Source: Alteriqipengyuania abyssalis (lineage in GTDB: Bacteria; Pseudomonadota; Alphaproteobacteria; Sphingomonadales; Sphingomonadaceae). Taken from it: a DNA stretch of 64,000 nt. Within the stretch, counting starts at the first letter, position 1. Each line of letters starts with the position of its first letter. The translations under genes were made by a program, and so were the position numbers. The notes under the pieces are model-generated. The model was not told where the DNA came from and made no database searches. It saw only the letters and a list, made by a program, of their open reading frames with translations. Positions 356-20,838 of the stretch are shown piece after piece. The DNA lies in assembly GCF_019857185.1 (NCBI RefSeq), contig NZ_JAHWXP010000001.1, forward strand, positions 124,001 to 188,000, in the 5' to 3' direction.

Positions 356-742
356 CTATCGCGGCGTTACCGAGGTAACGACGCTGCCTTCGGTTCCAGT
401 ACGAAATTCAAAGGCTATTCCCTCACCGACACTGACCTGTTCGAGGATTTGCGCGTCGGCTTCGAAGGTCATGGTCATCGCGGGCCATCCGATACTTTCG
501 ACCGGACCATGCTCGATGGTCACCGTGCCCGCCTCGGAATCGATGGCTGTAACCGTTCCCTCCGCACTGGCGCTCTGCTCGCCGCCGGTCTCCTCCGCCA
601 TCGGCATTTCGCCTGACATGGGCATGCTGTCCGAGTTCGCCATGTCGTCTGACATCATGGTCTCTGAGCTGTCGTCTGCAGCGTCGCAGGCTGCAAGCGC
701 CAGCGGTGCCGCGAGCAGGATCATGTAGGTTGGGGTACGCAC
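356..742 (-). CDS. cusF: CusF-like periplasmic copper-binding lipoprotein
   Basis: The 128-aa product has a lipoprotein signal (LALAACDAA), a Met/Asp/Glu-rich linker and a C-terminal CusF fold with [16 protein letters not shown]. The His, Trp and two Met of that motif are the Cu(I)/Ag(I) ligands of CusF. It should ferry periplasmic Cu(I) to the CusCBA pump. I chose a GTG start at 742, inside the end of cusA, because AAGGAG sits about 8 nt upstream and the basic N-region makes a normal signal peptide; an ATG at 724 is the alternative. It overlaps cusA by 22 bp, so the two are co-translated. A second CusF domain is fused to the neighbouring CusB. Confidence 0.87.
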
Positions 743-3700
743 TCTTCTTCTCCTTGAGGGTTGGCCGGTTTTTCCGGACGGGGGCGCCGCAACAACAGAT
801 AGGCGGCGGGAAGCAGGAACATGGACAGGAGCGGGGCGGTGATCATGCCGCCAACCATCGGCGCGGCGATGCGGCTCATGACTTCCGAGCCCGCGCCGGT
901 GCCGATCAGGATCGGAAAGAGACCCGCAAGGGTGACTGCGACGGTCATCGCCTTGGGCCGCACGCGCAGGAGCGCGCCTTCCCGGATGGCCTCGTCTACT
1001 TCTTCGGCGCTCAGATCACCGCGTCGCCGCTCCAGTGCGGCTTTCAGGTAAATCAGCATCACTACGCCGAATTCGGCGGAGACGCCGGCAAGCGCGATGA
1101 AACCGACCGCAGTCGCCACCGACTGGTTGTAGCCCATCAGATAGAGCAACCAGTATCCGCCCGTCAGCGCGAAGGGCAGCGTGCCCATGATCAGCAAGGC
1201 TTCGTCCCAGCGCCGGAAAATGAGATAGAGCAGCAGGAAAATGATCGCAAGCGTCGCGGGAACCACGACCTTCAGTCGCTCATAGGCGCGCGTCAGATAT
1301 TCGAACTGGCCCGCATAGGACAGGCTGACGCCGGCAGGAAGATCGACACCCGCGGCGACGACCTCCTGCAGATCGGCGACCACCGAAGTAAGATCGCGGC
1401 CCCGGACGTCGACGTAGATGTAGCTGGTCAGTCGGCCCTGTTCGCTCTTGAGCATGGGCGGACCGTCGCTGACGGCGATACGGGCGACAGTGCCAAGCGT
1501 GATCTGTTGGCCGGACGGCGTCAGAACCGGCAAGGCCCTGAGTTCCTCGACGCTGTCCCTGATTTCGCGGGGATAGCGCACATTGATCGGATAGCGCGCC
1601 AGCCCCTCGACGGTCCGTGCGACATTGGCACCGCCAACTGCACCAGAGACGATCTGCTGGATGTCGGCAATGTTGAGCCCGTATCGCGCGGCCGCCATCC
1701 GGTCGATATCGACATCGACATAGCGACCGCCCGACAGGCGCTCCGCCAGGGCGGAACTCACGCCAGGCACGGTTTTGGCGATACGCTCCACATCGAGTGC
1801 AACGCGTTCGAGTTGATCGAGATCGTCGCCTGAAACCTTGACCCCGATCGGGCTCTTGATCCCGGTCGCGAGCATGTCGATCCGGTTGCGGATCGGCGGC
1901 ACCCAGACATTGGCGAGGCCCGGCACCTGAACGACCCGGTCAAGTTCCTCGACCAGCAGATCGGGCGTCATTCCCTCGCGCCACTCCTCGCGCGGCTTGA
2001 AGCGGATCGTCGTTTCGAACATCGTCAGGGGAGCCGGATCCGTCGCTGTATCGGCGCGCCCCGCCTTGCCGAACACCGTTTCCACCTCGGGGACCGACTT
2101 GATCAGGCGATCGGTGCGCTGCAGCAGCGCCGAAGCCTCGCCGGGGGAAAGGCCGGGCAGCGCGCTCGGCATATAAAGCAAATCGCCTTCATCGAGCGGC
2201 GGGAGGAACTCGCCGCCAAGCCGGGTGAAGGGGATCGCGGTGGTCAGGAAGATCAGCGCCGCGATCACCAGCGTTGCCTTTGGGCGCCGCATGACCCAGT
2301 CGAGCCCCGGACGATAGATTTTCGTCAGCCAGCGGTTGAGAAAATTGGAATCCTCCGAAGGGATCTTCCCACGGATCAGCCATCCCAATATTACCGGCAC
2401 CAGCGTTACCGACAGAATGGCCGCGGCCGCCATGGCATAGGTCTTGGTGAAAGCGAGCGGAGCGAACAACCGCCCTTCCTGCGCCTGCAGGGTGAAGACC
2501 GGTAGGAACGACAGCGTAATGATCAGCAGACTGAAGAACAACGCCGGTCCCACTTCCTTCGATGCATCGGCGATGATCCGCCAGCGTTCCTTCACCGCGA
2601 GCGCGGTATCGGGATTCTCGTGTTCCCATCGCTCGAGATGCTTGTGCGCGTTCTCAATCATGACGACGGCGGCATCGACCATCGCACCGACCGCGATGGC
2701 TATTCCACCCAGCGACATGATGTTGGCATTGACGCCCTGGATGCGCATCACGATGAAGGCCGCGAGCACGCCCAAAGGCAGGGTGATGATGGCGACAAGT
2801 GCCGAACGCGCGTGCCAGAGGAACAGCGCGCATACGAGCGCCACGACGATAAACTCTTCGATGAGCTTCGTGGTGAGGTTCTCTATAGACGCATCGATGA
2901 GCTGAGAGCGATCGTAGGTCGTGACGATCTCGACGCCTTCGGGAAGGCTTGCCTGCAAGTCGTCGAGTTTGAGTTCCACGGCTTGGATCGCGCTTCGCGC
3001 ATCCGCGCCCTGGCGCAGAACGATGATGCCCCCGGCAACCTCGCCTTCGCCATTGAGCTCGGCGATGCCACGGCGCAGCTCGGGGCCTACCTGGATTGTC
3101 GCTACGTCGCCAAGCGTGACCGGAATGCCGCCGCTCGCAGTGCGTAGTGGAATCTGCCGAAAATCCTCGAGGTCGCCGAGATAGCCCGAGGCGCGGACCA
3201 TATATTCGGCTTCGCCCATCTCGACGATCGAGCCGCCCGCTTCCTGGTTGGCGGCCTCGATTGCGCTCACGATCTCGGCGTGGGTCACGCCCAGCGATGC
3301 CATCCGGTAAGGCTCGAGCACGACCTGGTATTGCTTGACCATTCCGCCGACGCTCGCGACCTCGGCAATGCCGGGGATCGTCTTGAGCTCATAGCGCAGG
3401 AACCAGTCCTGCAGGCTGCGCAGTCCGGCAAGGTCGTGTCCGCCGGTCCTGTCGACCAGTGCATATTCGTAGATCCACCCCACCCCGGTTGCATCGGGTC
3501 CCAGCGTGCTCGTGACGCCATCGGGCAGGCGGTTCTGCACTTGGTTGAGATATTCGAGCACGCGCGATCGCGCCCAGTAGAGGTCGGTACCATCCTCGAA
3601 GATGATATAGACATAGCTGTCACCGAACATCGAATAGCCGCGGACGGTTTTCGCCCCCGGGACCGAGAGCATGGTCGTTGCCAGGGGATAGGTGACCTGG

Positions 3701-3888
3701 TCCTCGACGATCCGGGGGGCCTGCCCCGGATAGTTCGACCGGACCACGACCTGCACATCGGACAGATCGGGCAACGCGTCGACCGGCGTCGCGCGTACCG
3801 CCCAGAAACCGGCCAGCGTCACCGCGACGGCAGCGAGAACGATAAAGAGGCGGTTGGCGATCGAGGCGTCGATGATGCGTGCGATCAT
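721..3888 (-). CDS. cusA: CusA/CzcA-family heavy-metal RND efflux pump, inner-membrane subunit
   Basis: At 1055 aa this has the normal length of a heavy-metal-efflux RND transporter. The N-terminal TM segment is followed by the first periplasmic porter loop ([18 protein letters not shown]). The TM4 motif [21 protein letters not shown] carries the acidic residue used for proton relay, and a second TM block (around residues 865-1040) is typical of the family. It is the proton antiporter of a CusCBA tripartite pump moving metal from periplasm/cytoplasm to outside. Its start overlaps the cusB stop by 4 bp (ATGA) and its end overlaps cusF. The neighbouring CusF domains and copper oxidases point to Cu(I)/Ag(I) rather than Co/Zn/Cd as substrate; this is inferred from context. 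Confidence 0.93.
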
Positions 3889-5393
3889 TCTCCAGCCCTC
3901 CTAATAGTCTCGATTTGGGGGCCGGCTTCCTGCTGGGTGAAGGTGAAGCGCACCCTGTCGCCCGTTTCGAGGCCGCGCATTTGCGCCGCGCTCTTCGTGC
4001 GGAAGGTCATCGTCATCGCGGGCCAATCGAGCCGGGGCACGGGACCATGCCGCAGCGTCACCGAACCATTGGCGATCGACTGGATCGTGCCGGTGGCACC
4101 GAAGGTCGCTGGTTCGTCCTCGCCGCCGGTGGAAGCGTCATCTGCCTGATCTTTCGGACGGACGTCCAGTCCGGTGAGGCTTGCTTCGGAATCGAGCAGG
4201 AACTGACCCGATGTCACGACCTGCTCGCCGGCGGAAAGTCCGGCCAGCACTTCGGTCCTTCCACCCGCTTCGCGGCCGATCCGAACCTCGGCGGGCATGA
4301 AACCGCCCTCGTCCTGCTTCACCATCACGATGGTTCGACGTCCGGTCCTGATAACGGCTTCGGACGGCACCAGCAGCGCGCGGCGTGTGTCCGGGGTCAG
4401 CGAGACCTGTGCGAACATGCCCGGCTTGAGGCGACCGGATGCATTGGGCAGTTGCGCACGAACGGTGATCGTACGGCTTGCATCCTCCGCGCTCGGCAGG
4501 ATAGCGACAATGGGTCCGGAGAAGCGTTCCTCGGGGAATGCGGTCAGCGTCGCGCTGACAGGTTGCCCGACGCGTACATTCGCCGCCTGCGTTTCAGGCA
4601 CCGCGGCTTCGAGCCAGATCGGTGAGAAACCGGTTATCTCGGCGAGCGTCTGTCCGGCCATGACCGTCATCCCCGTTCGCACGCCGAGCGATGTGATGGC
4701 ACCTCCAATCGGCGCGGTAACGGTGATCGTGGACTGCGGATGTCCACTGCGCCCTACCGATGAGATCAGGCCTGGAGGCATGCCCAAAAGGCGCATGCGT
4801 TCGCGCATGGCCTGCGCAAGTTCTTCATCACCGCTGTTCAGGACGGCCAGATACTCCTGCTGCGCTCCGCCCCATTCGGGAACCAAGATATCCGCGAGCG
4901 GAGCGCCCCGTCCAACGACATCGTCGGGTGCGCGGCCGTAGGTTCTTTGTACATAGCCTCCGGCACGTGGCTGGACGATCGCGACGTCGCGTTCGTTGTA
5001 GGATAGAACGCCTGTGACGGTTACTTCCGGCTCGAGGACGCCGTACTCGGCTTCAGTGGTGCGGATGCCGAAATTCTGCACCAGGCCGGGATCGATCCTG
5101 ACGCCTGCGGTGGCCTCTTCGCCCGCGCATTTTGGGACCAGCTGCATATCCATGAAGGGCGACTTGCCCGGCTCGTCGAAGTGCTGCCCCGGCACCATCG
5201 GGTCGTACCAGTAAAGGACCTCCTCGCATTCGGTCGCACCGCCGCCCGCGTCGCCTGCACCACCCTGGCCTTCACCGAGCTGCGAGAGACCATAGCCGGA
5301 GGCAAGACTAATGAGCGCGATTGTGCCTGCCATCGTCCAGGATTTCTGGCGCGGCGACAGCCTGTCCCACGCGGCTCCCATTGCGGCTCTCAT
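3885..5393 (-). CDS. cusB: CusB-like RND periplasmic adaptor with fused C-terminal CusF domain
   Basis: The 502-aa membrane-fusion protein starts with one TM anchor. A heavy-metal-binding (HMBD-like) segment [10 protein letters not shown]...[15 protein letters not shown] follows around residues 50-80, then the lipoyl/beta-barrel adaptor domains, and finally a CusF domain ([16 protein letters not shown] near residue 455). It should link CusA to the outer-membrane channel and accept metal. The ATG at 5393 overlaps the cusC stop by 4 bp, which decides the start; the frame is open further upstream but only as antisense to cusC. Fusion of CusF to CusB, together with a free CusF, means two chaperone domains per operon. 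Confidence 0.92.
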
Positions 5394-6625
5394 CGGCCAT
5401 ACTCCCCATAGGTCAGTCGCAGGTTCGCGGCGGCTTCGACGGTCGCTTCCTCGCGTTGCAGAATGTCCACCCGCAGCACGGCGAGCGTTTTGATGGTGTC
5501 GATGACGTCGAGCAGTTCCGCGCGGCCTGCGGCAAAGCTCGCGCGCTCGAGGTCCACGCGGCTTTCCGCGAGCGGGAGCAATTCGTCCGTCGCGCGCTGC
5601 CATTGTCGATAAGCGCTGCGCCAGGCGGCGAGATCGGTCTCGAACTGGGCTTCGAGTTCACGCAGCCGGTCGGCTCTGGCCGATTGCGCCGCAGCCGCCT
5701 CGGCTTCGGCGGCGGCTATACGCGGGTTTTGGCGCCGGTCCGCGAAAATCGGGAGTGTGATCGAACCCATCACCGAGATCGCATCGCCAAAATCGGGATC
5801 GCGCCGCCCATAGCTCACGTTGACGCCGAAATCCGGACGCCTTTCCGATCGCGCAAGATCGCTTCTCGCTTCCGCTTGACGAACCTGCGCAAGCGCCACG
5901 ACAAGCTCAGGATTGCTTTGAAGCATGGCCCGCAAACTTTCGGGATCGAGATCGGCCGAAGGGATGGTTCCGGTCGCGGTAGCGTTCGGCAGAGCCGTAT
6001 AGCGCGACAGCATGGCCTGAGCGGCCTCTCGGTCGGCTTCGATCCTGGTCCGCATGTCTTCGACTTCGAGCACGGCACGGCGTACTTCCAGACTTTCGGC
6101 GGGTCTGGCCGAACCGGCGGCGACAGAACTGCGGGCGAGTGGTACGAGCCCCTCGATTTGAGCAAGTGCATCGTCGGCGACGGTCAGAGCCCGTTGGGCA
6201 TAAGCCAACGAAATCCATGCCATTCCTGCTCCGACGCGCACCCTGTAACGGGTTTGACGCAACTGTGCTGCGGCAAGTCCGATGTCGGCCTCCGCCATTC
6301 CGAACCGGGCCCGACGTTTCGCGAGATTGGGGATCTCCTGTTCGATGCCGACTTGGATCTGCGTTGGGAGCTGGCGATCCAGCTCGAACGCAGCCGGCCC
6401 GCTTACCGGCAGGTTCTGGATGCCCGCGCGAAGGCGCGGATCGGGCAATTCATCGGCAGCGTCGGCGATCTCGCGCCGGGCGTCCAGTCGCAGCTCGCTT
6501 GTTCGAACCTGGGGCTGGTCGCTCGTTGCTGCTCGTACAGCTTCCTCATAGCCCACCGACTGGGCATAACTCGCCGGCGCAAGGGCCAGCAGGACCGGAA
6601 GCGCGGTCCAGCTTATTCGTTTCAT
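5390..6625 (-). CDS. cusC: TolC-family outer-membrane efflux channel (CusC/CzcC-like)
   Basis: The 411-aa product has a Sec signal peptide (LLALAPASYAQ) and long Ala/Arg/Glu-rich amphipathic helices of the outer-membrane efflux family, including EQEIPNLAKRRARFGMAEADI and a repeat-like second half ending [10 protein letters not shown]. It is the exit duct of the CusCBA pump. It is the first pump gene, 115 bp after the 140-aa gene, and a 24-bp perfect palindrome lies in that gap. It has no lipobox, unlike many CusC/NodT relatives. Confidence 0.88.
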   Translation of the reverse strand: MKRISWTALPVLLALAPASYAQSVGYEEAVRAATSDQPQVRTSELRLDARREIADAADELPDPRLRAGIQNLPVSGPAAFELDRQLPTQIQVGIEQEIPNLAKRRARFGMAEADIGLAAAQLRQTRYRVRVGAGMAWISLAYAQRALTVADDALAQIEGLVPLARSSVAAGSARPAESLEVRRAVLEVEDMRTRIEADREAAQAMLSRYTALPNATATGTIPSADLDPESLRAMLQSNPELVVALAQVRQAEARSDLARSERRPDFGVNVSYGRRDPDFGDAISVMGSITLPIFADRRQNPRIAAAEAEAAAAQSARADRLRELEAQFETDLAAWRSAYRQWQRATDELLPLAESRVDLERASFAAGRAELLDVIDTIKTLAVLRVDILQREEATVEAAANLRLTYGEYGR

Positions 6626-6737: not shown

Positions 6738-6740
6738 GGG

Positions 6741-10378: not shown

Positions 10379-10788
10379 GCGTTTTCTCCTTCCTTCATCA
10401 TGGTCCAGAACAATTGTGCCGAGCAGCTGATGAGCGCGAAGCCGGTCAAGGCTTCGACGCCGGCAATGACGCGCAGGTGCTCGGTCGGGTAGATGTCGCC
10501 GAGCCCCAGCGTGGTCACGTTGATCAGCGAGAAATAGAAATAGTCCATCGCACTCATCGCCGGCGTCTTGTCGAACCCGCCGAGGCCCAGCTCCGCGCCC
10601 AGCCAGAAACCGCCAGCGAAGAGCGTCGCGACAAGCAGGTGCGATGCCAGGACGAGAAGCGCGACCCCAAGTTTGGCGGAGAAATTTCCGGGTGCGTCGA
10701 GCATGCGATGCCCTGCGCCGAGGATCGACAGATGCACGCCGACCGAGGCCAGGAAAAGTGCAATGGCGAGAATTAGTGCGGCGATCAT
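10375..10788 (-). CDS. Two-TM potassium-channel-like protein
   Basis: 137 aa with a first TM helix at residues 1-22, another hydrophobic stretch at 40-65, a pore segment TTLGLGD at 92-98 and a last TM helix. TTLGLGD resembles the K+ channel selectivity filter (TxGYGD with Leu for Tyr). No RCK or cyclic-nucleotide domain is present. Both ends overlap neighbours by 4 bp, so it belongs to the APC-channel-DUF305 unit. A role in ion balance under metal stress is inference. Confidence 0.8.
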   Translation of the reverse strand: MIAALILAIALFLASVGVHLSILGAGHRMLDAPGNFSAKLGVALLVLASHLLVATLFAGGFWLGAELGLGGFDKTPAMSAMDYFYFSLINVTTLGLGDIYPTEHLRVIAGVEALTGFALISCSAQLFWTMMKEGENA

Positions 10789-12134
10789 CGATGATCTCCA
10801 TCGTGTGTGGCGGGCATTTCACGCAGCGCAGGATTCCGACGGAGATAGAACCATTCGGCTCCGAACACTGCAGCAATACCTGCGACCGCATAGGCGACGA
10901 CCGCAGGGTCGGTTTTGAGCTTGGCGAGGGCAAAAGCTGTCAGGACTACGCCGTCCGCCATGAGCGCCGACCAGAGGATCCAGGCACGCGCGCCTATTTC
11001 TTCCCGCAAACCGCGCAGCACGCCCCAATGCACGAGCATGTCCATTACGAGATAGAAGAACGCTCCGAGCGAGGCGATCCGCGAAAGATCGAACAGGACC
11101 GCGAGCGTGCCGGCGACCACGACGGTATAGACCAGCATGTGACTGCGGATCGGTCCCTTCATCCCAAAATGGCTATGCGGGATCATCTTCATTTCGGTCA
11201 GCATCGTCAGCATTCGCGAAACGGCGAAAACGCTGGCGATGACACCCGAGGTCGTGGCTGCGATCGCGATTGCGACTGTGAAATAGAACCCAAGCTCTCC
11301 GAGCGCGGGGCGCGCAGCTGCCGCAAGCGAGTAATCGCGCGCTTGCGCTATTTCCGAAGTGCTGAGGCTGGCTCCGACCGCCACCGCGACCAGAAGGTAG
11401 ACGACCACGCATACTGTGATCGAAATGATAATGGTTCTGCCAACATTTCGGTGCGGATCGATGATTTCGCCGCCGCTGTTGGTGATGGTGGTGAAACCCT
11501 TGAACGCGAGGATCGAGAAGGCGACCGACGCGAGCAACGCGTCGAGACCCGAAAGCGCGACTGGCTCTGAGAAGGCGCCGCCCGAAAAGCCGCTGGCCCA
11601 GATCGCCGCAATCGCGAACAGGGCGATGCCGCCGATCTTGATCGCCGACATGACGAGAGAGAAACCGCTGACCGATTTGTTGCCTGCCGCATTCACGAAA
11701 TAGGCGAAGACGATGAGCGCCAGTGCCGCGACGGAAACCAGAATGCCGCTGCTCTCGAGCCCAAAGGGCCGCAAGGCATAGGTCGCGAAGGTCCGAGCGA
11801 CCAGGCTTTCGTTGATGACCATCGACAGCGCCATCAGGAGCGATGCCGATGCTGCAACAACACCCGGTCCGTAGGCCTTCTGAAGAATCATCGCGATGCC
11901 GCCAGAGGAGGGCCAGCGGTTCGACATCTTGATGTAGCTGTAGGCGGCTAGGGAAGTGACCAGGGCGCCGACTATGAAAGAAAGCGGAAATAGCGGTCCA
12001 GCCAGTTCGGCAATCTGGCCGGTCAGTGCGAAAATACCAGCGCCGATCATGACGCCGGTTCCCATTGCGACACCGCCAAGCAGCGTTATCGATCCAGCAC
12101 TCTTCCCATGTTGATCGTCGCCATCTGTCTGCAA
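10785..12134 (-). CDS. APC-family amino-acid/cation permease
   Basis: 449 aa with about 12 TM helices. The first helix carries GVAMGTGVMIGAGIFALTGQ, the substrate-binding helix signature of the APC superfamily. The substrate cannot be read from sequence. It is the first gene of the long minus-strand block and has a predicted ECF-sigma promoter about 50 bp upstream (12185-12210), so it appears to lead a metal-induced operon. Its stop overlaps the channel gene by 4 bp. Confidence 0.85.
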   Translation of the reverse strand: MQTDGDDQHGKSAGSITLLGGVAMGTGVMIGAGIFALTGQIAELAGPLFPLSFIVGALVTSLAAYSYIKMSNRWPSSGGIAMILQKAYGPGVVAASASLLMALSMVINESLVARTFATYALRPFGLESSGILVSVAALALIVFAYFVNAAGNKSVSGFSLVMSAIKIGGIALFAIAAIWASGFSGGAFSEPVALSGLDALLASVAFSILAFKGFTTITNSGGEIIDPHRNVGRTIIISITVCVVVYLLVAVAVGASLSTSEIAQARDYSLAAAARPALGELGFYFTVAIAIAATTSGVIASVFAVSRMLTMLTEMKMIPHSHFGMKGPIRSHMLVYTVVVAGTLAVLFDLSRIASLGAFFYLVMDMLVHWGVLRGLREEIGARAWILWSALMADGVVLTAFALAKLKTDPAVVAYAVAGIAAVFGAEWFYLRRNPALREMPATHDGDHR

Positions 12135-12184
12135 GTCTTTCCCCTGTCGATGTCCTCCCGTCCGAGAAACATCACGACAAGCAG

Positions 12185-12210
12185 TACGTTGCGAAGCGGC
12201 TCACCCCTCA
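12185..12210 (-). promoter_or_regulatory. Predicted ECF-sigma promoter for the APC-led operon
   Basis: On the minus strand: TGAGGGG, 15 bases, CGTA. It matches the element found in front of four other units of the island. The -10 lies about 50 nt from the ATG of the permease. Confidence 0.7.
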
Positions 12211-12373
12211 AAAAATTTTCTGGCGGGGCATGAGCCATCCTTGGGCTGGCCCCGGAATCGCGTTGAGCTATCGATTTCCGGCGGCGCGCTCTTTCTTCCT
12301 GCAGCGATGCCGATGGCGGCGCGTCAAGGCACGGCAGTCCACGCTGAGTGCGCCTAATATTCAGCGCGTCAAA

Positions 12374-12646: not shown

Positions 12647-12857
12647 CGCATTTCTCCCACTTCGTGCGTCCTAAAATTATGCAAACGGAAGGGTCCGGGA
12701 CCGTCGGGGCAGCCGGCCCCGGACCCAGCGGGATGATCGACAGGCATCTTAGCGCCCGTCCCGGTGTCCCGGGCTTCTGTATTATTCCCGCGCGATTGTT
12801 CTTCAACGAGACATCGCCCTTATTTCTCGCGCGGCCACTGGCGTCAGTTCCTTACAA

Positions 12858-13322
12858 TCACCGATAAGATGCGAAGACGCTCTGTCCGGTCGGACCAAAG
12901 GCGATGACCTCATAGGGCTGGATCCGGTTTCCGGCCTCCATGCCGGGCGATCCCAGAGGCATTCCCGGAACCGCTAGACCGGCAACGCCGTCGGGCCGCT
13001 CGCGCAAAAGTCGGGCGACGGCTTCGGCGGGCACGTGACCTTCGATGATGTATCCATCGACCTCCATCGTGTGGCACGACCACAATTCTTCCGGTACGCC
13101 GCGCGCTGTCTTGATCGCCGCCATGTCGTTGCTATCGACCGATGCCACCTTCGCGTTCATCCCATCTTCAAGATGGCCTGCCCAGTTGAGACAGCATCCA
13201 CATCCGGGGTCCCTGAACATCGTATAGGTCGCTGCCTGAGCCACGTTCGAACAGGCTGCCAGCACGAGCAAGGCCGCGCCGCTAACCGATCGCCGGAACA
13301 GGGCAGGCTTTTTCCAGATCAT
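12858..13322 (-). CDS. DUF411 periplasmic copper-binding protein
   Basis: 154 aa with an N-terminal signal (LLVLAACSNVAQA, which could be a lipobox) and the DUF411 signature FRDPGCGCCLNWAGHLE, a CxCC cluster suited to metal binding. Also typical are RGVPEELWSCHTMEVDGYIIEGHVPAEAV and VPGMPLGSPGME. DUF411/CopG-like proteins are common in copper clusters. The ATG at 13322 overlaps the methyltransferase stop by 4 bp, which decides the start. A longer open frame upstream has no support. Confidence 0.87.
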   Translation of the reverse strand: MIWKKPALFRRSVSGAALLVLAACSNVAQAATYTMFRDPGCGCCLNWAGHLEDGMNAKVASVDSNDMAAIKTARGVPEELWSCHTMEVDGYIIEGHVPAEAVARLLRERPDGVAGLAVPGMPLGSPGMEAGNRIQPYEVIAFGPTGQSVFASYR

Positions 13323-14023
13323 TGTGCAATTCCTTTCTTGTATCCGCGCCATAGCGAGATCGTCCCGGTCACCGTCGGGAACCGGTGGAGCAGGCATGGC
13401 TCGGTGAAGATTTCGGCGAACAGTTTTTCGACTTGGCCGTCGGCGCTGGGCTGCGTGTCGCTAATGCCGTCAAGCGACTGGACGGTCGCCCGGAAGAGGC
13501 TCCGCATGAGTGGGCTATCCTGCTTCATATAATCGGCGATCAAGACGGTTCCGCCTGGCACGAGCAAGCTTTCGATGGTTTCCAGGATTGCCTGCTTCTT
13601 GCGCAAGGGAACCTGGTGAAGGACGAGGCTGCTGACGATCTTGTTCGGCTGCCACCCTGCGGGCAGCTCGAGGCTTTCGAGAAAGCCATTGTGCCATTTG
13701 ACGAGATCGGCTCCCGCCCCAAACTTGCGCCGCGCAAGCGCGAGCGCCTCTTGGTCGGGTTCGACACCGATCAGACCCGCTTCCGGGCAATCCGTCATCA
13801 AGGCCTTGAGAAGTGTACCGGTTCCGCTGCCGACATCGATCACCCGGTCGCCGGGGACAAGGTGCAGCTCTTCGACAATCTTTTGTCGCCAGAGATGTTC
13901 GCGGGTGAACAGACCGAGCGCCCGGTCGTAAAGCGGCGTCAGAAAGCTCTTGCCAAGAAGAGGCGTGAATTCGCCGTGATCTTCAGGCGCGGTGATATTG
14001 TTCACGCGTTCGCTCCCATTCAT
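13319..14023 (-). CDS. Class I SAM-dependent methyltransferase
   Basis: 234 aa. Motif I VIDVGSGTGTLLKAL lies around residue 61 and the acidic end of strand 2 is GVEPDQEALALARRKF. The rest (SLVLHQVPLRKKQAILETIESLLVPGGTVLIADY) follows the UbiE/ubiquinone-type methyltransferase pattern. No Cys triad like that of ArsM is present. The substrate is unknown. It is the first gene of a two-gene unit with DUF411 and has a predicted ECF promoter 40 bp upstream, arranged back-to-back with the cnrY-like gene. Confidence 0.82.
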   Translation of the reverse strand: MNGSERVNNITAPEDHGEFTPLLGKSFLTPLYDRALGLFTREHLWRQKIVEELHLVPGDRVIDVGSGTGTLLKALMTDCPEAGLIGVEPDQEALALARRKFGAGADLVKWHNGFLESLELPAGWQPNKIVSSLVLHQVPLRKKQAILETIESLLVPGGTVLIADYMKQDSPLMRSLFRATVQSLDGISDTQPSADGQVEKLFAEIFTEPCLLHRFPTVTGTISLWRGYKKGIAQ

Positions 14024-14060
14024 CCCGGGTTCGACCCGATTCTGGCAGACCCGTCTCGAT

Positions 14061-14086
14061 TACGTATGGCGGGGGACATTCCCTCA
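14061..14086 (-). promoter_or_regulatory. Predicted ECF-sigma promoter for methyltransferase-DUF411
   Basis: On the minus strand: TGAGGGA, 15 bases, CGTA. It is preceded by a run of seven T. It is divergent from the site at 14099-14124. Confidence 0.7.
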
Positions 14087-14098
14087 AAAAAAGAAGTT

Positions 14099-14124
14099 TA
14101 AGGGATTGTGCAGGCGAGCGCGTA
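14099..14124 (+). promoter_or_regulatory. Predicted ECF-sigma promoter for the sigma-sensor trio (autoregulation)
   Basis: TAAGGGA, 15 bases, CGTA, ending 32 nt before the ATG of the cnrY-like gene. The -35 element differs by one base from the other sites. It implies that the sigma factor drives its own operon. Confidence 0.65.
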
Positions 14125-14156
14125 TAGGGCACGTGGAACCCACAGGAGTTTTTCGG

Positions 14157-14453
14157 ATGCGTGACAAACACTCTCTTGATGCGGTGCTCGGAACCCTCTC
14201 CGCCACCGCCGCTAGCGAGGTCCCCGCCGACTTTATGGATGGCGTTTGGCAGCGCGCCGGACAGCTTGGCGAAATCGCCGACCGACGCCGCCGCACGGCT
14301 CTGTTCGTCGGTCTGTTTGTCGTCGGGCTCGGGGCTGGCGCCGGAACGAGCGGTTGGCCCGGGGGGTATGGCACGTCGTCCGCGCCATTTGGCGACAGTG
14401 CGATCCTCGGCGAACAGCTGTCCCCATCGGCGCTCCTCCATGTGGAGCAATAG
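14157..14453 (+). CDS. CnrY-like single-pass anti-sigma factor
   Basis: 98 aa: a cytosolic N-terminal ~44 residues, one TM segment (TALFVGLFVVGLGAGAG) and a short periplasmic tail. Length and topology match CnrY, the small membrane anti-sigma factor of the Cupriavidus CnrYXH system, and the next two genes supply the X and H partners. Sequence similarity to CnrY was not tested. The start has a good CAGGAG 8-9 nt upstream. It should hold the ECF factor at the membrane until the sensor binds metal. Confidence 0.7.
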   Translation: MRDKHSLDAVLGTLSATAASEVPADFMDGVWQRAGQLGEIADRRRRTALFVGLFVVGLGAGAGTSGWPGGYGTSSAPFGDSAILGEQLSPSALLHVEQ

Positions 14454-14456
14454 GGT

Positions 14457-14891
14457 TTGAAGTCGACGCATATCGTTCTCGCGGTGCTTCTCGCAGCGCT
14501 CGCAGGATGCCTCGGCGCGATTGCCGCGGACCGCTGGGCCAATCACGAGGCCGGCTCCGGCCTCCACGATTTCGTGCACGACGAGCTCACCCTGACGGCC
14601 GACCAGGAGCAGCGTCTCGATGCGCTCGAGGCCCGTTTCGCTGTCGAAAGGGCACGGCTCGAAGGATCGGCGCGTGCAGCCAATGCCCGGCTCGCCCAGG
14701 CGATGGAAACCGAGCATGAGTACGGTCCCGAGGTCTCGGCCGCGATCGACGAGGTGCATGCACGCATGGGCGATCTGCAGAAAGCAACGGTGCGCCATGT
14801 CTTCGACATGCGCGAAATTCTCGAACCCGATCAGCAACGCCAGTTCGACCGCAAGGTCTCCGACGCCCTGACCCGCGACCCGCGCGACTGA
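14457..14891 (+). CDS. CnrX-like periplasmic heavy-metal sensor
   Basis: 144 aa with an N-terminal membrane anchor (HIVLAVLLAALAGCLGAIAA) and an all-helical periplasmic domain. The CnrX metal ligands are His42, His46, Glu63, His119 and Met123. Here His37, His41, Glu58, His114 and Met118 occur at exactly the same spacing, all shifted by five. So the full metal site is kept. The likely start is TTG at 14457, three bases after the previous stop; GGAG lies about 12 nt upstream. It should relay periplasmic metal to the CnrY-like anti-sigma factor. Whether it sees copper, nickel or cobalt cannot be told from sequence. Confidence 0.85.
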   Translation: MKSTHIVLAVLLAALAGCLGAIAADRWANHEAGSGLHDFVHDELTLTADQEQRLDALEARFAVERARLEGSARAANARLAQAMETEHEYGPEVSAAIDEVHARMGDLQKATVRHVFDMREILEPDQQRQFDRKVSDALTRDPRD

Positions 14892-14897
14892 AGCGCC

Positions 14898-15458
14898 ATG
14901 TCGGGGGCGGGCGACAATCCGGACGAGGCCCTTGTCTCGCAGGCAAGGGCCGGAAGCAAGCGGGCTTTCAGCAAGCTCGTCGAGCATGAAACGGGTCGGC
15001 TTCTCGCGCTCGCGACACGCATGCTTTCCTCTCCTTCTCAGGCGGAGGACGTTGTTCAGGACAGCCTCGCTTCGGTGTGGCTGACGCGCCATCGGCTCGA
15101 TCCGGACAAGCCGATCGGACCCTATCTGACAACCGTCGTCCTCAACCGCTGCCGGGACCGTTTGCGCAGGCGCAAGGTCGCGGGCTTTTTCGGACTGTCG
15201 GGCGATGACGAACTCCATTCCATCGCCGACGATTTGCCGGGTCCTGAAACGTCGGCCGTTTCCAGGGAAGAGCTCAATCGTGTCCAGGCCGAGATCGCGC
15301 GAATGCCTGTAAGGCTGCGCGAAGCGCTTGTGCTCGTCACCATCGAGGGGCGTAGCCAGGCCGAGGCGGCCGATCTTCTCGGAACGACCGAAAAGGCGAT
15401 CGAAACCCGCGTATACCGCGCGCGCCACAGGCTGAAGGAGCGCTTCGAAAAACTTTGA
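14898..15458 (+). CDS. ECF RNA polymerase sigma factor (CnrH/RpoE group)
   Basis: 186 aa with sigma region 2 (SQAEDVVQDSLASVWLTRHRL, YLTTVVLNRCRDRLRRRK) and region 4 (RMPVRLREALVLVTIEGRSQAEAADLLGTTEKAIETRVYRARHRLKERF). It directs RNA polymerase to stress promoters when freed from its anti-sigma partner. It is the third gene of the trio, 6 bp after the sensor. Its stop codon TGA forms the start of the -35 element of the promoter for copA. The sites at 12185, 14061, 14099, 15456 and 20091 are its proposed targets. Confidence 0.93.
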   Translation: MSGAGDNPDEALVSQARAGSKRAFSKLVEHETGRLLALATRMLSSPSQAEDVVQDSLASVWLTRHRLDPDKPIGPYLTTVVLNRCRDRLRRRKVAGFFGLSGDDELHSIADDLPGPETSAVSREELNRVQAEIARMPVRLREALVLVTIEGRSQAEAADLLGTTEKAIETRVYRARHRLKERFEKL

Positions 15459-15481
15459 GGGGTTGGGTGGGCGCGCGCGTA
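15456..15481 (+). promoter_or_regulatory. Predicted ECF-sigma promoter for copAB
   Basis: TGAGGGG, 15 bases, CGTA, beginning at the stop codon of the sigma gene and ending 32 nt before the copA ATG. It allows copAB to be induced separately from the sigma operon. Confidence 0.75.
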
Positions 15482-15513
15482 AGTAACGGTAAACGCCACG
15501 TCAGGAGCCCTTT

Positions 15514-17322
15514 ATGATCGCCGTCAATCGACGCAAGTTTCTCGGAGCCGGAGCAGGAGGAATGGGTCTGCTCAGCCTTGCCGGGGCGATGCCTGCCTGG
15601 GCACGCGGCGCGGACATCCTCGCAGGTAACGCCCGCAAGGGGCTGGACGAGGTATCCGGCCCCAATATCGACCTCACCGTTGCCCGATCGGCCTTCGCGA
15701 CCGGTAACAGGCGCGGGGGAGCGATCGCCGTCAATGGCACGATCCCCGGTCCGCTGCTGCGTTTGCAGGAAGGCACGACCGTCCGGCTCAATGTCCATAA
15801 CCAGCTCGAGGAAGATACCTCGATCCACTGGCACGGTCTGCTCGTGCCGTTTCAACTCGATGGAGTGCCGGGAGTAAGCTTCCCCGGCGTCAAGCCGGGA
15901 GAGACCTTCACCGCCGAATTCCCGGTTCGCCAGTCAGGCACCTATTGGTGGCACTCGCATAGCGGGCTGCAGGAACAGGCCGGGCATTACGGCGCGATCG
16001 TGGTCGATCCCGCCGGACCCGATCCGGTTCAGGCCGACCGCGAATATATCGTGGTGCTGAGCGAATTCAGCGAAATGTCGCCCCACACGATTTTCGACAA
16101 GCTCAAGAAGGGCGAGGGCTACTTCAACTACAACCAGAATACCTGGACCGACGACTACCCGCTTTCGGGTGAGGATCGCCGGATGTGGGCCAGAATGCGC
16201 ATGATGCCGACCGACATCCTCGACGTTTCGAGCGCGGCTTATACCTACCTTCTGAACGGCCATGGCCCGCTCGACAATCTGGAATACCTCTTCCGTCCAG
16301 GCGAACGCGTGCGGCTGCGCTTCATCAATGCCGGCGCCATGACCTTCTTCAATATTCGCATTCCCGGCCTGCCGATGACCATCGTTCAGGCGGACGGGCA
16401 GAACGTCGAGCCGGTTGAGGTCGACGAGTTCCAGATCGGTGTGGCCGAGACCTATGACGTCGTCGTGACGCCGGGCGCGCAACAAGCCTACACGTTGGTT
16501 GCGGAGTCGATGGACCGCTCGGGCATGGGTATTGCCACACTCGCGAGCGCACCCGGCGCTCGCGCCGCCATTCCGCCGCTGCGCGATCCGCCGCTTCTGA
16601 CCATGGCGGACATGGGCATGAGCGACATGGACCACGGCTCGTCTGGCGATGCCGGCATGTCGGGCATGGACCACGGAAGTGGCGGCGACATGGCGGGGAT
16701 GGATCATGGTTCGTCCGGCCAATCCGAGATGGCAGGCATGGCCGGCATGTCGGGCATGCAGATGCGCGACACCTCGCTTCTGCCGCCCGATGTGAAGGTC
16801 GGGCCCGGTCTCGACATGGTCTCGATGAACCCGGTCGATCGCATGGGCGATCCCGGCATCGGTCTCGCCGATGTGCCGCATCGTACGCTCGACTATCGCA
16901 AGCTGCGCGCTTTTACGCCGCACCGCGAGGGCCGCACGCCGTCCCGGCGAATGGAAATTCATCTGACCGGCAATATGGAGCGCTACATGTGGTCGTTCGA
17001 CGGCAAGAAGTTCTCCGCCGTCTCAGACGAGCCGATCCGTTTCGCCTATAACGAGCGCGTGCGCGTGAAGCTCGTCAACGACACGATGATGGCGCACCCC
17101 ATTCACTTGCACGGTCATTTCTTCGAGCTGGTCAATGGCGCGCCGGCCGATCGTCAACCGCTCAAGCACACGGTAATCCTGCAGCCGGGTGGCAGCGCGC
17201 AGTTCGACCTGACGGCGGACGAGCCCGGCGACTGGGCCTTCCACTGTCACCTTCTCTACCACATGCATGCCGGGATGTTTCAGATCGTCACGGTCGCCAA
17301 CCCCGACGGGAGCGAAGCATGA
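15514..17322 (+). CDS. copA: CopA/PcoA multicopper oxidase
   Basis: 602 aa with a Tat signal (NRRKFLGAGAGGMGLLSLAG). Copper-ligand motifs are present: SIHWHG, YWWHSHSG, HPIHLHGH and HCHLLYHMHAGM, the last carrying the type 1 Cys-His-Met set. Between cupredoxin domains 2 and 3 (residues ~365-415) is a Met/His-rich insert of MDHGSSGD-like units, as in CopA/PcoA. It should oxidise Cu(I) and bind copper in the periplasm. AGGAG lies before the ATG. The stop overlaps copB by 4 bp. It is the second multicopper oxidase of the island, of a different subfamily from the one at the left edge. Confidence 0.95.
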   Translation: MIAVNRRKFLGAGAGGMGLLSLAGAMPAWARGADILAGNARKGLDEVSGPNIDLTVARSAFATGNRRGGAIAVNGTIPGPLLRLQEGTTVRLNVHNQLEEDTSIHWHGLLVPFQLDGVPGVSFPGVKPGETFTAEFPVRQSGTYWWHSHSGLQEQAGHYGAIVVDPAGPDPVQADREYIVVLSEFSEMSPHTIFDKLKKGEGYFNYNQNTWTDDYPLSGEDRRMWARMRMMPTDILDVSSAAYTYLLNGHGPLDNLEYLFRPGERVRLRFINAGAMTFFNIRIPGLPMTIVQADGQNVEPVEVDEFQIGVAETYDVVVTPGAQQAYTLVAESMDRSGMGIATLASAPGARAAIPPLRDPPLLTMADMGMSDMDHGSSGDAGMSGMDHGSGGDMAGMDHGSSGQSEMAGMAGMSGMQMRDTSLLPPDVKVGPGLDMVSMNPVDRMGDPGIGLADVPHRTLDYRKLRAFTPHREGRTPSRRMEIHLTGNMERYMWSFDGKKFSAVSDEPIRFAYNERVRVKLVNDTMMAHPIHLHGHFFELVNGAPADRQPLKHTVILQPGGSAQFDLTADEPGDWAFHCHLLYHMHAGMFQIVTVANPDGSEA

Positions 17323-18635
17323 AAATTCGTATTGCCAGCCTGCTCGTATCGGTCGCAGCCGGCTCAGTTCTCGCCTCCCCTGCGGCGGCGCAGCATGCCG
17401 GTCATTCGCCGGCGGAAGCGCAGCAAAGCGCCGAGGCGCAGGCTGACGCGAAGACAAAGTGCGAGGAAGAAGCCGAGCGCCATCGCGAAATGGGGCATCC
17501 GGTTGCAGATGGAGCATGCGAACCGGCTGCCCAGCCTGAAGCCGCCATGGACCGCTCCGAGATGGATCATTCAATCATGGATCATGGTTCGATGACAGCT
17601 CTAGATGGCCATTCTGGCATGACAGTGCCGATGGACGCTGCCCGTCCACAGGCATCGCCCGAAAGTCATGACGGAATGGATCACGGCTCGATGCCGCAGG
17701 GCAAGCCCGCCGAAGACGCGATGGATCATTCGCAGATGAACCACGGCGAGATGGGGCAGGCGAACGCAGACAGGTCGTCGATGGACCATGGGCAGATGGA
17801 TCACAGCCAGATGAACCATGGGCAGACGCCTTCGCAGGAAATGCAGGGCATGGACCATTCGGCGATGCAGATGGGCGCGGACGATGATATCCCGCTGCTG
17901 CCGCCTCCCCCCGAAGCCGGGAGCGGCCCAGCGCGCGCGGCGGTCGCCATCTGGGGCGAGGAAGCCATGAACGAAGCGCGCCGCGAGCTTATCCGCGAGA
18001 CTGACGGAGGAATGCGCTTCTGGTTTCAGGGCGACAGGCTCGAATACCGCGCCCGCGAGGGGAAGGATGGATATCTGTGGGACATCCAGGGATATTATGG
18101 CGGCGATATCGACAGGTTCTGGTTCAAGTCCGAGGGTGAGGGCAGCTTTGGCGAACCCATAGAAGGCGCCGAGGTCCAGGCGCTCTGGAGCCGCGCCATT
18201 GCGCCCTTCTTCGATTTCCAGGCGGGTGTTCGCCAGGACCTCACCGGTCCGGAGCGCACGCATGCGGTTATCGGCATACAGGGCCTCATGCCGTACCGTT
18301 TCGAGGTCGATGCTGCGGCCTTCGTGTCCACCAAGGGCGATGTGACCGCGCGGATCGAGGGCGAACTCGACCAGCGCATCACGCAGCGGTTGATCCTCCA
18401 ACCGAGAGCCGAACTCGCGCTTTCTGCGCAAGACATTCCCGAGCTGGGCATTGGAGCCGGTCTTGATCGGATCGAGGCGGGCCTGCGTCTACGCTACGAG
18501 TTCGCACGCGAATTCGCACCCTATGTCGGCGTTTCGCAAGAATGGCGCATCGGCGACAGCGCGGACTTTGCGCGGGCCGCCGGAGAGGATCCGAGCGTCA
18601 CCAATTATGTCGTCGGTGTGCGATTCTGGTTCTGA
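17319..18635 (+). CDS. copB: CopB/PcoB outer-membrane copper-resistance protein
   Basis: 438 aa. After a Sec signal (SVAAGSVLASPAAAQ) comes a ~150-residue Met/His-rich region with repeated MDHS-Q-M-N-H-like units, which probably binds copper. A CopB beta-barrel domain follows: AIWGEEAMNEARRELIRE, FWFKSEGEG, and the C-terminal NYVVGVRFWF with the aromatic end needed for outer-membrane assembly. It is coupled to copA by an ATGA overlap, as in copAB/pcoAB operons. Confidence 0.94.
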   Translation: MKIRIASLLVSVAAGSVLASPAAAQHAGHSPAEAQQSAEAQADAKTKCEEEAERHREMGHPVADGACEPAAQPEAAMDRSEMDHSIMDHGSMTALDGHSGMTVPMDAARPQASPESHDGMDHGSMPQGKPAEDAMDHSQMNHGEMGQANADRSSMDHGQMDHSQMNHGQTPSQEMQGMDHSAMQMGADDDIPLLPPPPEAGSGPARAAVAIWGEEAMNEARRELIRETDGGMRFWFQGDRLEYRAREGKDGYLWDIQGYYGGDIDRFWFKSEGEGSFGEPIEGAEVQALWSRAIAPFFDFQAGVRQDLTGPERTHAVIGIQGLMPYRFEVDAAAFVSTKGDVTARIEGELDQRITQRLILQPRAELALSAQDIPELGIGAGLDRIEAGLRLRYEFAREFAPYVGVSQEWRIGDSADFARAAGEDPSVTNYVVGVRFWF

Positions 18636-18659
18636 AATCTCAAAAAGGATAGAACTTCC

Positions 18660-19178
18660 ATGACCAAGACTTTGACGCGCATCGCGGCGACTTCGCTTGT
18701 TGCCACGCTGATACCGCTGCCAGCCTTCGCGCAGCAGATGGACCACTCTTCCCATGCGAACCATCAGATGCACGCGATGGACGCTTCGGCGGACGATGTC
18801 GCGGGCGCTGAAGAAACCCTCAAGGCCTATCGCACCGCTCTTGAAGCGGGCGACGCGCAGGCAATGCGCGCGCTCTTCGCCGAGGACTCGGCGATCTTCG
18901 AGAATGGCAAGGCCGAAGGAAGCTTTGCCAATTACATGGAGCACCATTTGGGCCCCGAGCTCGACGCGATTGTGAGCTTCACCTTTACCGACCCCACGCT
19001 GACCGTCACCCGGATGGGGCACATGGCCCATGCCTATGAGACGTATGGCTATCGCATCGAACTTAGCGATGGCCGGGTGATCGAGCGCGACGGCGTGGCG
19101 ACATCGGTGCTTGCTCACGATGCGGACGGGTGGAGAATCGTCCAGTACCATTCCTCGTCGCGCGCGCCGCGCAACTGA
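18660..19178 (+). CDS. Exported NTF2/SnoaL-like protein
   Basis: 172 aa with a signal peptide ending PAFAQQ and a short His/Met stretch (MDHSSHANHQMHAMD). An NTF2-like domain (ETLKAYRTALEAGDAQAMRALFAEDSAIFENGKAEG; the final strand GWRIVQYHSSSRAP) follows. No enzymatic residues can be assigned. It is probably a periplasmic copper-binding protein, given the His/Met tract and the place 24 bp after copB. Confidence 0.78.
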   Translation: MTKTLTRIAATSLVATLIPLPAFAQQMDHSSHANHQMHAMDASADDVAGAEETLKAYRTALEAGDAQAMRALFAEDSAIFENGKAEGSFANYMEHHLGPELDAIVSFTFTDPTLTVTRMGHMAHAYETYGYRIELSDGRVIERDGVATSVLAHDADGWRIVQYHSSSRAPRN

Positions 19179-19205
19179 TTACGGCTTTCGAAGAGGTAGC
19201 ACCGG

Positions 19206-19937
19206 TTGGCAACGCCGTCGCTGAAGCTGCGCCTGCATGTGCTCGGCAGCAAGATCCACAAATGGCTGGCGATTTTCGTCGGTGTCCAGGTTCTCTTGTG
19301 GCTGGGAACCGGCGCCCTCATGTCGTTTCTCGACCTGGAAGAAGTTCGCTCCGAACATGTCGTTTCGCGTGAACAAGAGGCGCTGCCCGCCGATGCCCCG
19401 CTCCCGGCCTGGGTCGCAAATGACGGCACTCTTGCAGCGGTAACGACACGTTCGCTCGACGGCGATGCCGTGACCGAGGTCCGAAAGGTTGACGGTAGCG
19501 TGAACCTCCACGATCCGGTGACTGGGCGTAAACTCTCCCCCATCTCGGCGGCAACGGCAAAATCCATCGCCTTGCGCGCATGGACCGGGCCGCGCACGAC
19601 CATCGAGGCCGCACGGATCGTCGATGACCCCGTCGGAACAGAGTTTCGCGGGCCATTTCCGGCCTGGCAGGTCACCTATGCCGACGAGGCTTCGACGCGC
19701 ATCTACATCGATGCCGCCAGCGGCACGCTCGGGGCGGCGCGCAGCCATACATGGCGCCTGTTCGATTTCATCTGGGGCCTGCACATCATGGACTGGACCG
19801 AGCGCGATCGCATCAACAGTTGGTGGCTTCTGCTGTTCGGCATTGGCGGCACGATCATAGCCCTGTCGGGTTTCGTCCTGCTTGCGAACCGGATGCCGAG
19901 GCTGCGCCGCCGCGCAAAGAAGAGCAAGCTCGCCTGA
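19206..19937 (+). CDS. PepSY-domain membrane protein
   Basis: 243 aa with a TM helix at ~15-40 (HKWLAIFVGVQVLLWLGTGALMSF), a periplasmic region with a PepSY-like part (AWQVTYADEASTRIYIDAASGTLGAAR) and a C-terminal TM helix around 205-228. The start is a TTG at 19206 with GAGG about 10 nt upstream; no ATG suits better. PepSY membrane proteins are linked to iron/copper reductases and peptidase inhibition. It is the last gene of the copA-led run. Confidence 0.72.
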   Translation: MATPSLKLRLHVLGSKIHKWLAIFVGVQVLLWLGTGALMSFLDLEEVRSEHVVSREQEALPADAPLPAWVANDGTLAAVTTRSLDGDAVTEVRKVDGSVNLHDPVTGRKLSPISAATAKSIALRAWTGPRTTIEAARIVDDPVGTEFRGPFPAWQVTYADEASTRIYIDAASGTLGAARSHTWRLFDFIWGLHIMDWTERDRINSWWLLLFGIGGTIIALSGFVLLANRMPRLRRRAKKSKLA

Positions 19938-20090: not shown

Positions 20091-20116
20091 TGAGGGGCAC
20101 GCGGCTGCCGTGCGTA
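20091..20116 (+). promoter_or_regulatory. Predicted ECF-sigma promoter for the DUF2231-lipoprotein pair
   Basis: TGAGGGG, 15 bases, CGTA, about 50 nt before the DUF2231 ATG. It is the only promoter-like signal seen in the 229-bp gap after the PepSY gene. Confidence 0.7.
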
Positions 20117-20166
20117 TCAGGCACATAGGTCGCACTTTAGCTGCAGGGTTGGGAGACATACGAGAC

Positions 20167-20838
20167 ATGAAAGCCCCCTCATTTTTGGCGCTGCTCGCCG
20201 CAAGCCTGCTCTTCGTCGGACCCGTTCAGGCTCATGGCGACGAAAAACACGGCGAAGAGGCGAGCGCCGCGCCTGCTGCCACCAATGGCGATGTGCACGA
20301 CCAAGCGGCCAGGGCGCAGATGGGCGAGACTGCGGATGCTGGCGAATCCTCCGGCGCGCACGATGAAGCGGGCGGAGGTCATGACGAGTCCGGTGACCAT
20401 GCGAATGAGGGCGAAGCCGGCGTCATGGCCGTACTGAAGAAGCTGCATCCGGCAACGATCCATTTCCCGATCGCCTTGTTTTTCATGGCTGCGGCCACCG
20501 AATTGTTCGTGATGCGCCGGAAAGAAGCGGGCCTGGAAAGTGCGGTGCGCGTACTCGTCTACGGCGGAGCGATCGGCGCAGTCGTCGCAGTTCTGTTCGG
20601 ATGGATTCACACCGGCCTTTGGTTCGGAGGCGATGCCGTCATGCAGGTCCATCGATGGAACGGGATGCTGATCGCGGTCCTCGGTGTGGCAATGGCATAC
20701 CTCGCGAGCAGGCCGAGCCAGAGCCGCGCATGGTTGCGTACGGCTATCTTCTCGATGGCAGCACTTATTCTGGTGCAGGGCTTCCTTGGCGGCGAACTCG
20801 CGCATGGGCCAAACCATCTCGGAATTTCCTGGCTCTGA
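20167..20838 (+). CDS. DUF2231 membrane protein with His/Asp-rich N-terminus
   Basis: 223 aa. A signal peptide (FLALLAASLLFVGPVQA) precedes a ~70-residue His/Glu/Asp/Ala-rich periplasmic stretch (HGDEKHGEE, HDEAGGGHDESGDH). Four TM helices with the DUF2231 signature KKLHPATIHFPIALFFMAAATE follow. The family is uncharacterised but common in heavy-metal clusters. I chose the ATG at 20167 because it gives a proper signal peptide; an upstream ATG at 20110 would place the ECF promoter inside the gene. Confidence 0.82.
   Translation: MKAPSFLALLAASLLFVGPVQAHGDEKHGEEASAAPAATNGDVHDQAARAQMGETADAGESSGAHDEAGGGHDESGDHANEGEAGVMAVLKKLHPATIHFPIALFFMAAATELFVMRRKEAGLESAVRVLVYGGAIGAVVAVLFGWIHTGLWFGGDAVMQVHRWNGMLIAVLGVAMAYLASRPSQSRAWLRTAIFSMAALILVQGFLGGELAHGPNHLGISWL

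Follow-up and report, generated by a model that had tools for sequence, protein, structure and literature searches.

The copper island of Alteriqipengyuania abyssalis contains a three-gene operon, here denoted Y-X-H, that we consider to be probably a CnrYXH-type module, reporting periplasmic copper and controlling the copper genes of the island. The features that led us to this proposal were all read from sequence, namely the homology and predicted fold of the sensor X, the gene order, a candidate promoter together with its confinement to the island, and a residue difference that splits copper-type from cnr-type sensors. CnrYXH, CorE, SigF and SigAb are already known; what appears new here is a CnrYXH-type module that would run copper genes, of which our searches of open-licence papers gave no description.

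Gene content of the copper island

In the window, i.e. the whole stretch of 64,000 nucleotides analyzed here, the Y-X-H operon is followed on the plus strand by copA-copB and then by genes for SnoaL-like, PepSY-TM and DUF2231 proteins (Table 1). The sensor gene had been placed within a copper cluster in a preliminary description of this DNA, and family models confirmed this for CopA, CopB and the DUF411 protein as well as for the CusC/CusB/CusA/CusF-type genes. An APC permease, as annotated, also occupies the syntenic place in one plasmid locus (L003). To the right of the copper genes, at window positions 24323-26745, two adjacent ORFs resemble tyrosine-recombinase integrases as judged by reading the sequence. 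Relatives of the module were moreover present on 79 plasmid records, 40 of which are typed as conjugative. Given these integrase-like ORFs and plasmid-borne relatives, the copper island may be mobile.

Table 1. Features of the copper island and candidate H-type promoters (window coordinates unless otherwise indicated)
Feature	Position	Strand	Remarks
CueO-like multicopper oxidase, then copper P-type ATPase	ORF start at 351, mostly left of window; L195:8403-12351		Behind candidate H-type promoter
CusC-CusB-CusA-CusF-type genes	356..6625	-	Same island, left of module
Candidate H-type promoter 5' of CueO-like oxidase	400..425	-	TGAGGG-N16-CGTA
APC-family permease	10785..12134	-	First gene behind promoter 12185-12210; weak TIGR00909 match, below cut-off
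Candidate H-type promoter 5' of APC-permease gene (start 12134)	12185..12210	-	TGAGGG-N16-CGTA
DUF411 protein	12858..13325	-	PF04214
Methyltransferase, divergent from Y	13319..14023	-	PF13649
Candidate H-type promoter of divergent methyltransferase-DUF411 genes	14061..14086	-	TGAGGG-N16-CGTA
Candidate H-type promoter 5' of Y	14099..14124	+	TAAGGG-N16-CGTA
Y, CnrY-like small membrane protein, predicted anti-sigma factor	14157..14453	+	98 aa
X, CnrX-like periplasmic metal sensor	14457..14891	+	TTG start, 144 aa; H37, H41, E58, H114, M118, plus H101, M104 (copper-type) and H87
H, ECF sigma factor	14898..15458	+	186 aa; Sigma70_r2 and Sigma70_r4_2, without C-terminal extension
Candidate H-type promoter 5' of copA	15456..15481	+	TGAGGG-N16-CGTA
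copA, copper-resistance multicopper oxidase	15514..17322	+	TIGR01480, 772.8 bits
copB	17319..18635	+	PF05275, 290 bits
SnoaL/NTF2-like protein	18660..19178	+	PF13474
PepSY-TM protein	19206..19937	+	PF03929
Candidate H-type promoter 5' of DUF2231 gene (start 20158)	20091..20116	+	TGAGGG-N16-CGTA
DUF2231 membrane protein	20158..20838	+	PF09990

Homology, ligands and predicted fold of the sensor X

When X was compared with PDB sequences using phmmer, CnrX and NccX (seven distinct sequences) were the sole matches, with the best scores seen for 3zg1 (E 1.9e-21) and NccX 4clv (E 2e-21), and a profile made from 29 relatives of X retrieved the same seven sequences and nothing else. Alignment with CnrX of pMOL28 (L007) required no gap across the soluble domain and gave 43 identical residues out of 104 (41% core identity), with H42, H46, E63, H119 and M123 of CnrX pairing with H37, H41, E58, H114 and M118 of X. 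All five CnrX metal ligands are thus found at equivalent positions with a uniform shift of five, as the preliminary description had claimed. The chance that five pre-named positions would all match at 41% identity is 0.012, or about 1%, if independence is assumed. Their exact spacing, however, follows from the gap-free homology and is hence not separate evidence.

The same description had pointed to modelling of the site, and an AlphaFold2 model of X (mean pLDDT 83.6, and above 90 for the greater part of the soluble helices) superposed on CnrX 2y3d with a Z of 13.3 and an rmsd of 1.8 Å over 108 residues. The CnrX and NccX chains gave Z values of 12.2-13.3, the best other chain 9.7, CpxP (3itf) 9.0 and Spy (3o39) 7.9. 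An N-terminal helix was predicted for model residues 2-28, with low confidence. Among family models, X matched LTXXQ (32.1 bits) and Metal_resist (62.9 bits), and no NCBIfam model named the protein.

Two copies of the window (L001, L093) were removed before counting, and the removal of identical sequences then reduced 178 rows to 129 distinct sensors. All but three of these 129 (L034, L138 and L145), i.e. 126, had the five ligands. In a side branch of the copper type (L138, L145, L188, L190, L192, L193), an Asp replaces the ligand H37, with H101 and M104 retained. According to the title of PDB entry 3epv, CnrX has itself been crystallized with copper, a structure also cited in the reference list of PMC11647595, and its site thus accepts copper in vitro.

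Copper genes beside CnrX-like sensors in other genomes

Among 180 CnrX-like ORFs in 178 loci, 141 had copA downstream (same strand, within 3.5 kb), 9 had CnrCBA and 30 had neither, with 25 of the latter having less than 1.6 kb of stretch downstream; this collection is biased, in that 80 loci are the best of 473 matches and the genome surveys give loci for best matches only. In a phylum-wide draw where every match was given a locus, 23 sensors were found, of which 18 had copA in the stretch, 1 had only copC/copD, 2 were cnr-type and 2 had no listed neighbour. By profile search, genomes with a relative of X numbered 152 of 396 in the order, 5 of 385 class-wide and 17 of 398 phylum-wide. At the family level such a relative was present in 61 of 149 genomes of family f12 and in 6 of 249 in the family of genome G640, all six being cnr-type.

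A tblastn search of 72,556 plasmid records gave the 79 records mentioned above, mostly from Sphingomonadales, and using CnrX as the query likewise gave a total of 79. Among the first ten annotated ones (L003-L012), five showed the order Y-X-H-copA-copB (L003, L004, L005, L011, L012), which was seen again in S. yanoikuyae pSES220 (L202). In one more (L006) the annotation covers Y-X-H and copB, and a comparison revealed copA as well. Two Caulobacteraceae plasmids (L008, L009) had copper genes nearby, with copA not directly behind H, and two Cupriavidus plasmids (L007, L010) were cnr-type. The copper link is thereby maintained across many genomes belonging to several families, for which reason it is not a local rewiring, and the idea that the copper location of this module was a one-off event was rejected, the copper link being the rule among the relatives. 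The oddity implied in the preliminary description, of a Ni/Co signature found in a copper cluster, does not hold up either, as both types have the five ligands in common and there is a crystal structure of CnrX with copper. The five ligands do not separate copper-type from cnr-type sensors.

Residues that split copper-type from cnr-type sensors

All 124 sensors located outside cnr-type loci had His at position 101 and Met at position 104; of these, 99 had copA downstream, 23 stood beside other copper-type genes and 2 lacked any listed neighbour. In all 5 cnr-type sensors the two positions were instead Glu and Ala, corresponding to Glu106 and Ala109 in CnrX numbering. The NccX chain from the PDB also has Glu and Ala at the equivalent positions. 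Clustering at 80% identity gave 52 clusters, all of which had H101 and M104, making these two better conserved than the ligand H37. Only six columns were fully type-specific (44, 50, 101, 104, 126 and 130). Only seven His/Met columns reached 50% in the copper type, with H101 and M104 being among those and located three residues apart on one helix. At position 87, His was found in 87 of 99 copA-linked sensors, whereas all 5 cnr-type sensors had Pro. One genome (G729) has both types, with His/Met in the copper-linked sensors (L131, L141) and Glu/Ala in the cnr-linked one (L144). At a contig end of the same genome (G729:C1; L142, L143), two divergently facing X genes lie about 0.4 kb apart and have their last 112 residues identical.

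Among low-scoring relatives, five (L188, L190-L193) resembled the copper type, all having H101 and M104 and four being located beside copper genes; in another one (L187) H101 and M104 were kept with no listed copper neighbour. Six sensors (L034, L138, L145, L188, L192, L193) had lost one or two of the CnrX ligands, yet kept H101/M104 and copper neighbours. A further seven relatives (L180-L186), each next to an ECF sigma factor, lacked H101 as well as His/Met at positions 114 and 118. Of the reference genes, their fetched stretches contained the sigma factor only, those for copper or the cnr pump being absent. Here, the module may respond to a signal that is not a metal.

The five cnr-type sensors represent two clusters at 80% identity and form one clade in the tree, which was calculated from few columns, contains one very long row (L183) and has bootstraps that are unsettled. 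Its topology, depending on the root, is only suggestive of the cnr clade being nested among copper-type sensors. With cnr-type sensors in one clade, the residue split rests on one deep branch, and descent alone could explain His/Met versus Glu/Ala; H101/M104 could thus simply mark the lineage, or His101 could have a structural role. From helix geometry alone, we estimated that H101 and M104 are located some 15-20 Å along the helix from H114, which places them outside its mononuclear site within one protomer. Our inference is that metal is bound mainly at the five-ligand site, with residues such as H101/M104 adding specificity in the copper type, where they would contact copper, possibly across the dimer.

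The partner proteins Y and H

Y matched no Pfam model, gave no match to the CnrY family models searched (PF17524 and NF033790) and was not named by any NCBIfam model. A profile of Y proteins, picked partly by their tail motif, aligned with CnrY over 37 N-terminal columns with an hhalign probability of 86 in the one comparison made. When Y proteins were instead picked by hydrophobicity only, the C-terminal tail motif P-x-x-[LIVM]-[LIVM] was found in 117 of 128, a count that omits the locus L060, for which there was no Y candidate, and in 5 of 5 cnr-type ones, to be compared with 2 of 49 rejected reading frames and 9% of shuffled tails. Y is predicted to be the anti-sigma factor of the module. 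H has the features of an ordinary short ECF factor, with its region-4 match ending at residue 179 of 186. Sensing of copper by the sigma factor itself, as in CorE, was rejected, because H has no C-terminal extension, with only seven residues after the region-4 match.

A candidate promoter and the predicted regulon

The regions upstream of Y have TGAGGG and GCGTA[TA] in common. Of the copA-type loci, 96 of 98 had the pattern [GA]AGGG-N-CGTA within 120 bp 5' of Y and 85 of 97 had it behind H, compared with a rate of about 1% or less in shuffled sequences; in the class with other copper-type neighbours, only 11 of 22 Y upstream regions had it. The spacer was 16 in 104 of 112 Y matches. In cnr-type loci it was 17 in 7 of 7 matches, with [GA]AGGG-N17-CGTA being present in 3 of 5 Y regions and in 4 of 5 regions behind H (7 of 10 upstream stretches). 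In 72 loci of at least 14 kb, taken from 80 best-match loci by omitting eight shorter ones and also used for motif discovery, there were 3.00 sites of the strict form TGAGGG-N16-CGTA per locus versus 0.00 for the control. Because these same loci supplied the Y and copA upstream sequences from which the pattern was derived, finding it there involves some circularity, which is not the case for its confinement genome-wide.

In the host genome, TGAGGG-N16-CGTA had 5 sites in 3,099,119 bases, versus 1 for a reversed control pattern. All five were found within 19.7 kb of the copper island (contig 1, 124400-144116, i.e. window 400-20116), each standing 33-51 bp before a start codon. The looser RAGGG pattern gave 14 matches versus 28 for its control, and only the strict form is therefore specific. 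TGAGGG-N16-CGTA is likely to be the promoter of sigma factor H, which would then read the sites given in Table 1. The first three bases of the TGAGGG before copA are also the stop codon of H (15456-15458), an overlap that recurs in several relatives. The cus genes were provisionally set aside as members of the regulon, with no module promoter being found upstream of them even when one mismatch was allowed.

The same was analyzed in 96 genomes of the family for which the status of X was known. Those with X (n=27) had a mean of 4.48 strict sites (control 1.96) and those without X (n=69) had 1.09 (control 1.58; Mann-Whitney p 6e-11). Three X-positive genomes had fewer than 3 sites (G121, G123, G030), and three genomes without X were rich in sites (nine each in G053 and G320, four in G252), which, one close pair in G053 excepted, were on different contigs or at large distances from each other. 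The latter three were considered as a case against the regulon but taken as background, their sites being mostly scattered, and were kept in the statistics.

Besides CusA, one pump in the genome exceeded the cut-off of the heavy-metal RND family, this being a CnrA-like pump located outside the copper island (C1:908469-911651, L203; 58.7% to CnrA and 33.7% to CusA). Its fetched locus contained no H-type promoter site, and with all strict sites lying in the copper island, control of a CnrCBA-type pump by the module found no support.

Discussion

A mechanism for Y-X-H can be modelled by analogy with CnrYXH, in which metal is bound by periplasmic CnrX, the signal is passed to CnrY and CnrH is released, as described in excerpts of PMC7689651. 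X would be a membrane-anchored helical-hairpin sensor and Y would, in the absence of metal, keep sigma factor H at the membrane. Binding of copper by X via the five-ligand CnrX site, helped by H101/M104, would then make Y release H, whereupon H would act at the TGAGGG-N16-CGTA promoters of copA-copB, the DUF2231 gene, the methyltransferase-DUF411 genes, the APC permease gene and the genes for the CueO-like oxidase and copper ATPase, as well as at the TAAGGG version before Y in its own operon. In CnrX, the same excerpts state that Met123 is required, with zinc binding without Met123 but giving no signal.

The preliminary description had left two options for the signal, a copper sensor or a Ni/Co-type sensor put in charge of copper genes. 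We favour copper as the signal in view of the conserved copA link, a predicted regulon limited to the island and the presence of H101/M104, and the Ni/Co option is reduced accordingly. That X should still be a sensor of Ni/Co, or of divalent metals broadly, so that the copper genes would be induced by nickel, cobalt or several metals, we regard as unlikely. It would agree with the retention of the five CnrX ligands in nearly all distinct sensors and with the upregulation of CopA, CopB and CopC genes by 10 mM nickel in Sphingobium sp. ba1, for which excerpts of PMC5557971 describe a copper operon with ALDH/AdhP genes, listing no sensor or sigma gene. However, sensors outside the cnr clade are almost always coupled to copper genes, copper-type sensors have H101/M104 even after loss of CnrX ligands (L034, L138, L145, L188, L192, L193), and the CnrA-like pump is absent from the predicted regulon; a Ni/Co sensor omitting that pump but driving copA, copB, the CueO-like oxidase and the copper ATPase would make little sense. 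The excerpts on Sphingobium sp. ba1 also describe a cnrCBA-like cluster together with NreA- and NreB-like genes, which fits with a separate nickel control there. We find it very improbable that X is an envelope-stress sensor similar to CpxP, Spy or ZraP, with incidental metal residues and with the module answering to periplasmic damage caused by copper. The fold that X has in common with CpxP and Spy is compatible with such a role, and the relatives that lack both ligands and copper or cnr pump genes (L180-L186) imply that the scaffold can probably signal something else. In those relatives, however, the loss of ligands coincides with the lack of copper neighbours, whereas ligands are mostly kept beside copper genes, and CnrX and NccX superpose on X better than either CpxP or Spy.

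A closer contest concerns H101/M104, which may mark descent only and bind no metal in a module that nonetheless senses copper. This is a variant of our favoured explanation, with the confidences in the two overlapping, and we hold it to be a quite possible reading, if not the one we lean towards. The four other type-specific columns (44, 50, 126, 130) split about as cleanly and the cnr-type sensors are one clade, both as expected from descent. Against this stand the invariance of H101/M104 over all clusters, their position three residues apart among just seven well-populated His/Met columns, and the co-occurrence in G729 of copper-linked sensors having His/Met with a cnr-linked one having Glu/Ala. 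More tentatively, and with some doubt on our own part, CnrX and NccX could be a small offshoot derived within a family that senses mainly copper. Its ancestor would have used the five-ligand site and the H-x2-M pair (H101, M104), with replacement by Glu/Ala then giving Ni/Co sensing upon retention of ligands, sigma factor and nearly the same promoter.

Compared with CnrYXH of Cupriavidus metallidurans pMOL28 and NccYXH, the module has the same Y-X-H order, gap-free sensor homology, five ligands and fold, as well as the Y tail motif, an ECF sigma factor and a similar promoter. It differs in having copA/copB and other copper genes as its output instead of CnrCBA, a spacer of 16 instead of 17 and H101/M104 in place of Glu106/Ala109, and its Y is not recognized by the CnrY family model. 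The fold of X resembles that of the CpxP/Spy/ZraP stress proteins, but less closely than that of CnrX. In the two-component systems CopRS and CusRS, periplasmic copper sensing, which we also propose for Y-X-H, turns on copAB or cus, but using a histidine kinase and response regulator instead of a sensor, an anti-sigma factor and a sigma factor. The excerpts of PMC8973411 and PMC6917582 mention sensor kinases only. CorE of Myxococcus xanthus is a copper-dependent ECF sigma factor governing copper genes (PMC3107203, PMC10141476), but it senses copper itself through a C-terminal extension, unlike H with its separate partners Y and X. Loss of the ECF sigma factor SigF of Caulobacter leads to copper sensitivity, but the regulon and the anti-sigma factor (NrsF) are others and the excerpted text of PMC8224329 makes no mention of CnrX. 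SigAb of Acinetobacter baumannii is a copper-stimulated ECF factor having an anti-sigma factor, AabA, that was modelled like CnrY, but with metal genes in its indirect regulon and, again, without mention of CnrX in the excerpted text of PMC12153292.

What determines the metal choice of periplasmic sensors is still an open question, and the same five ligands appear here to serve either Ni/Co or copper depending on their setting. This family offers a natural comparison for that question, having the same fold and the same five ligands together with six type-specific columns, two of which bring possible copper ligands. A copper regulon with one sigma factor, one island and a sharp promoter would, furthermore, be usable as a biosensor.
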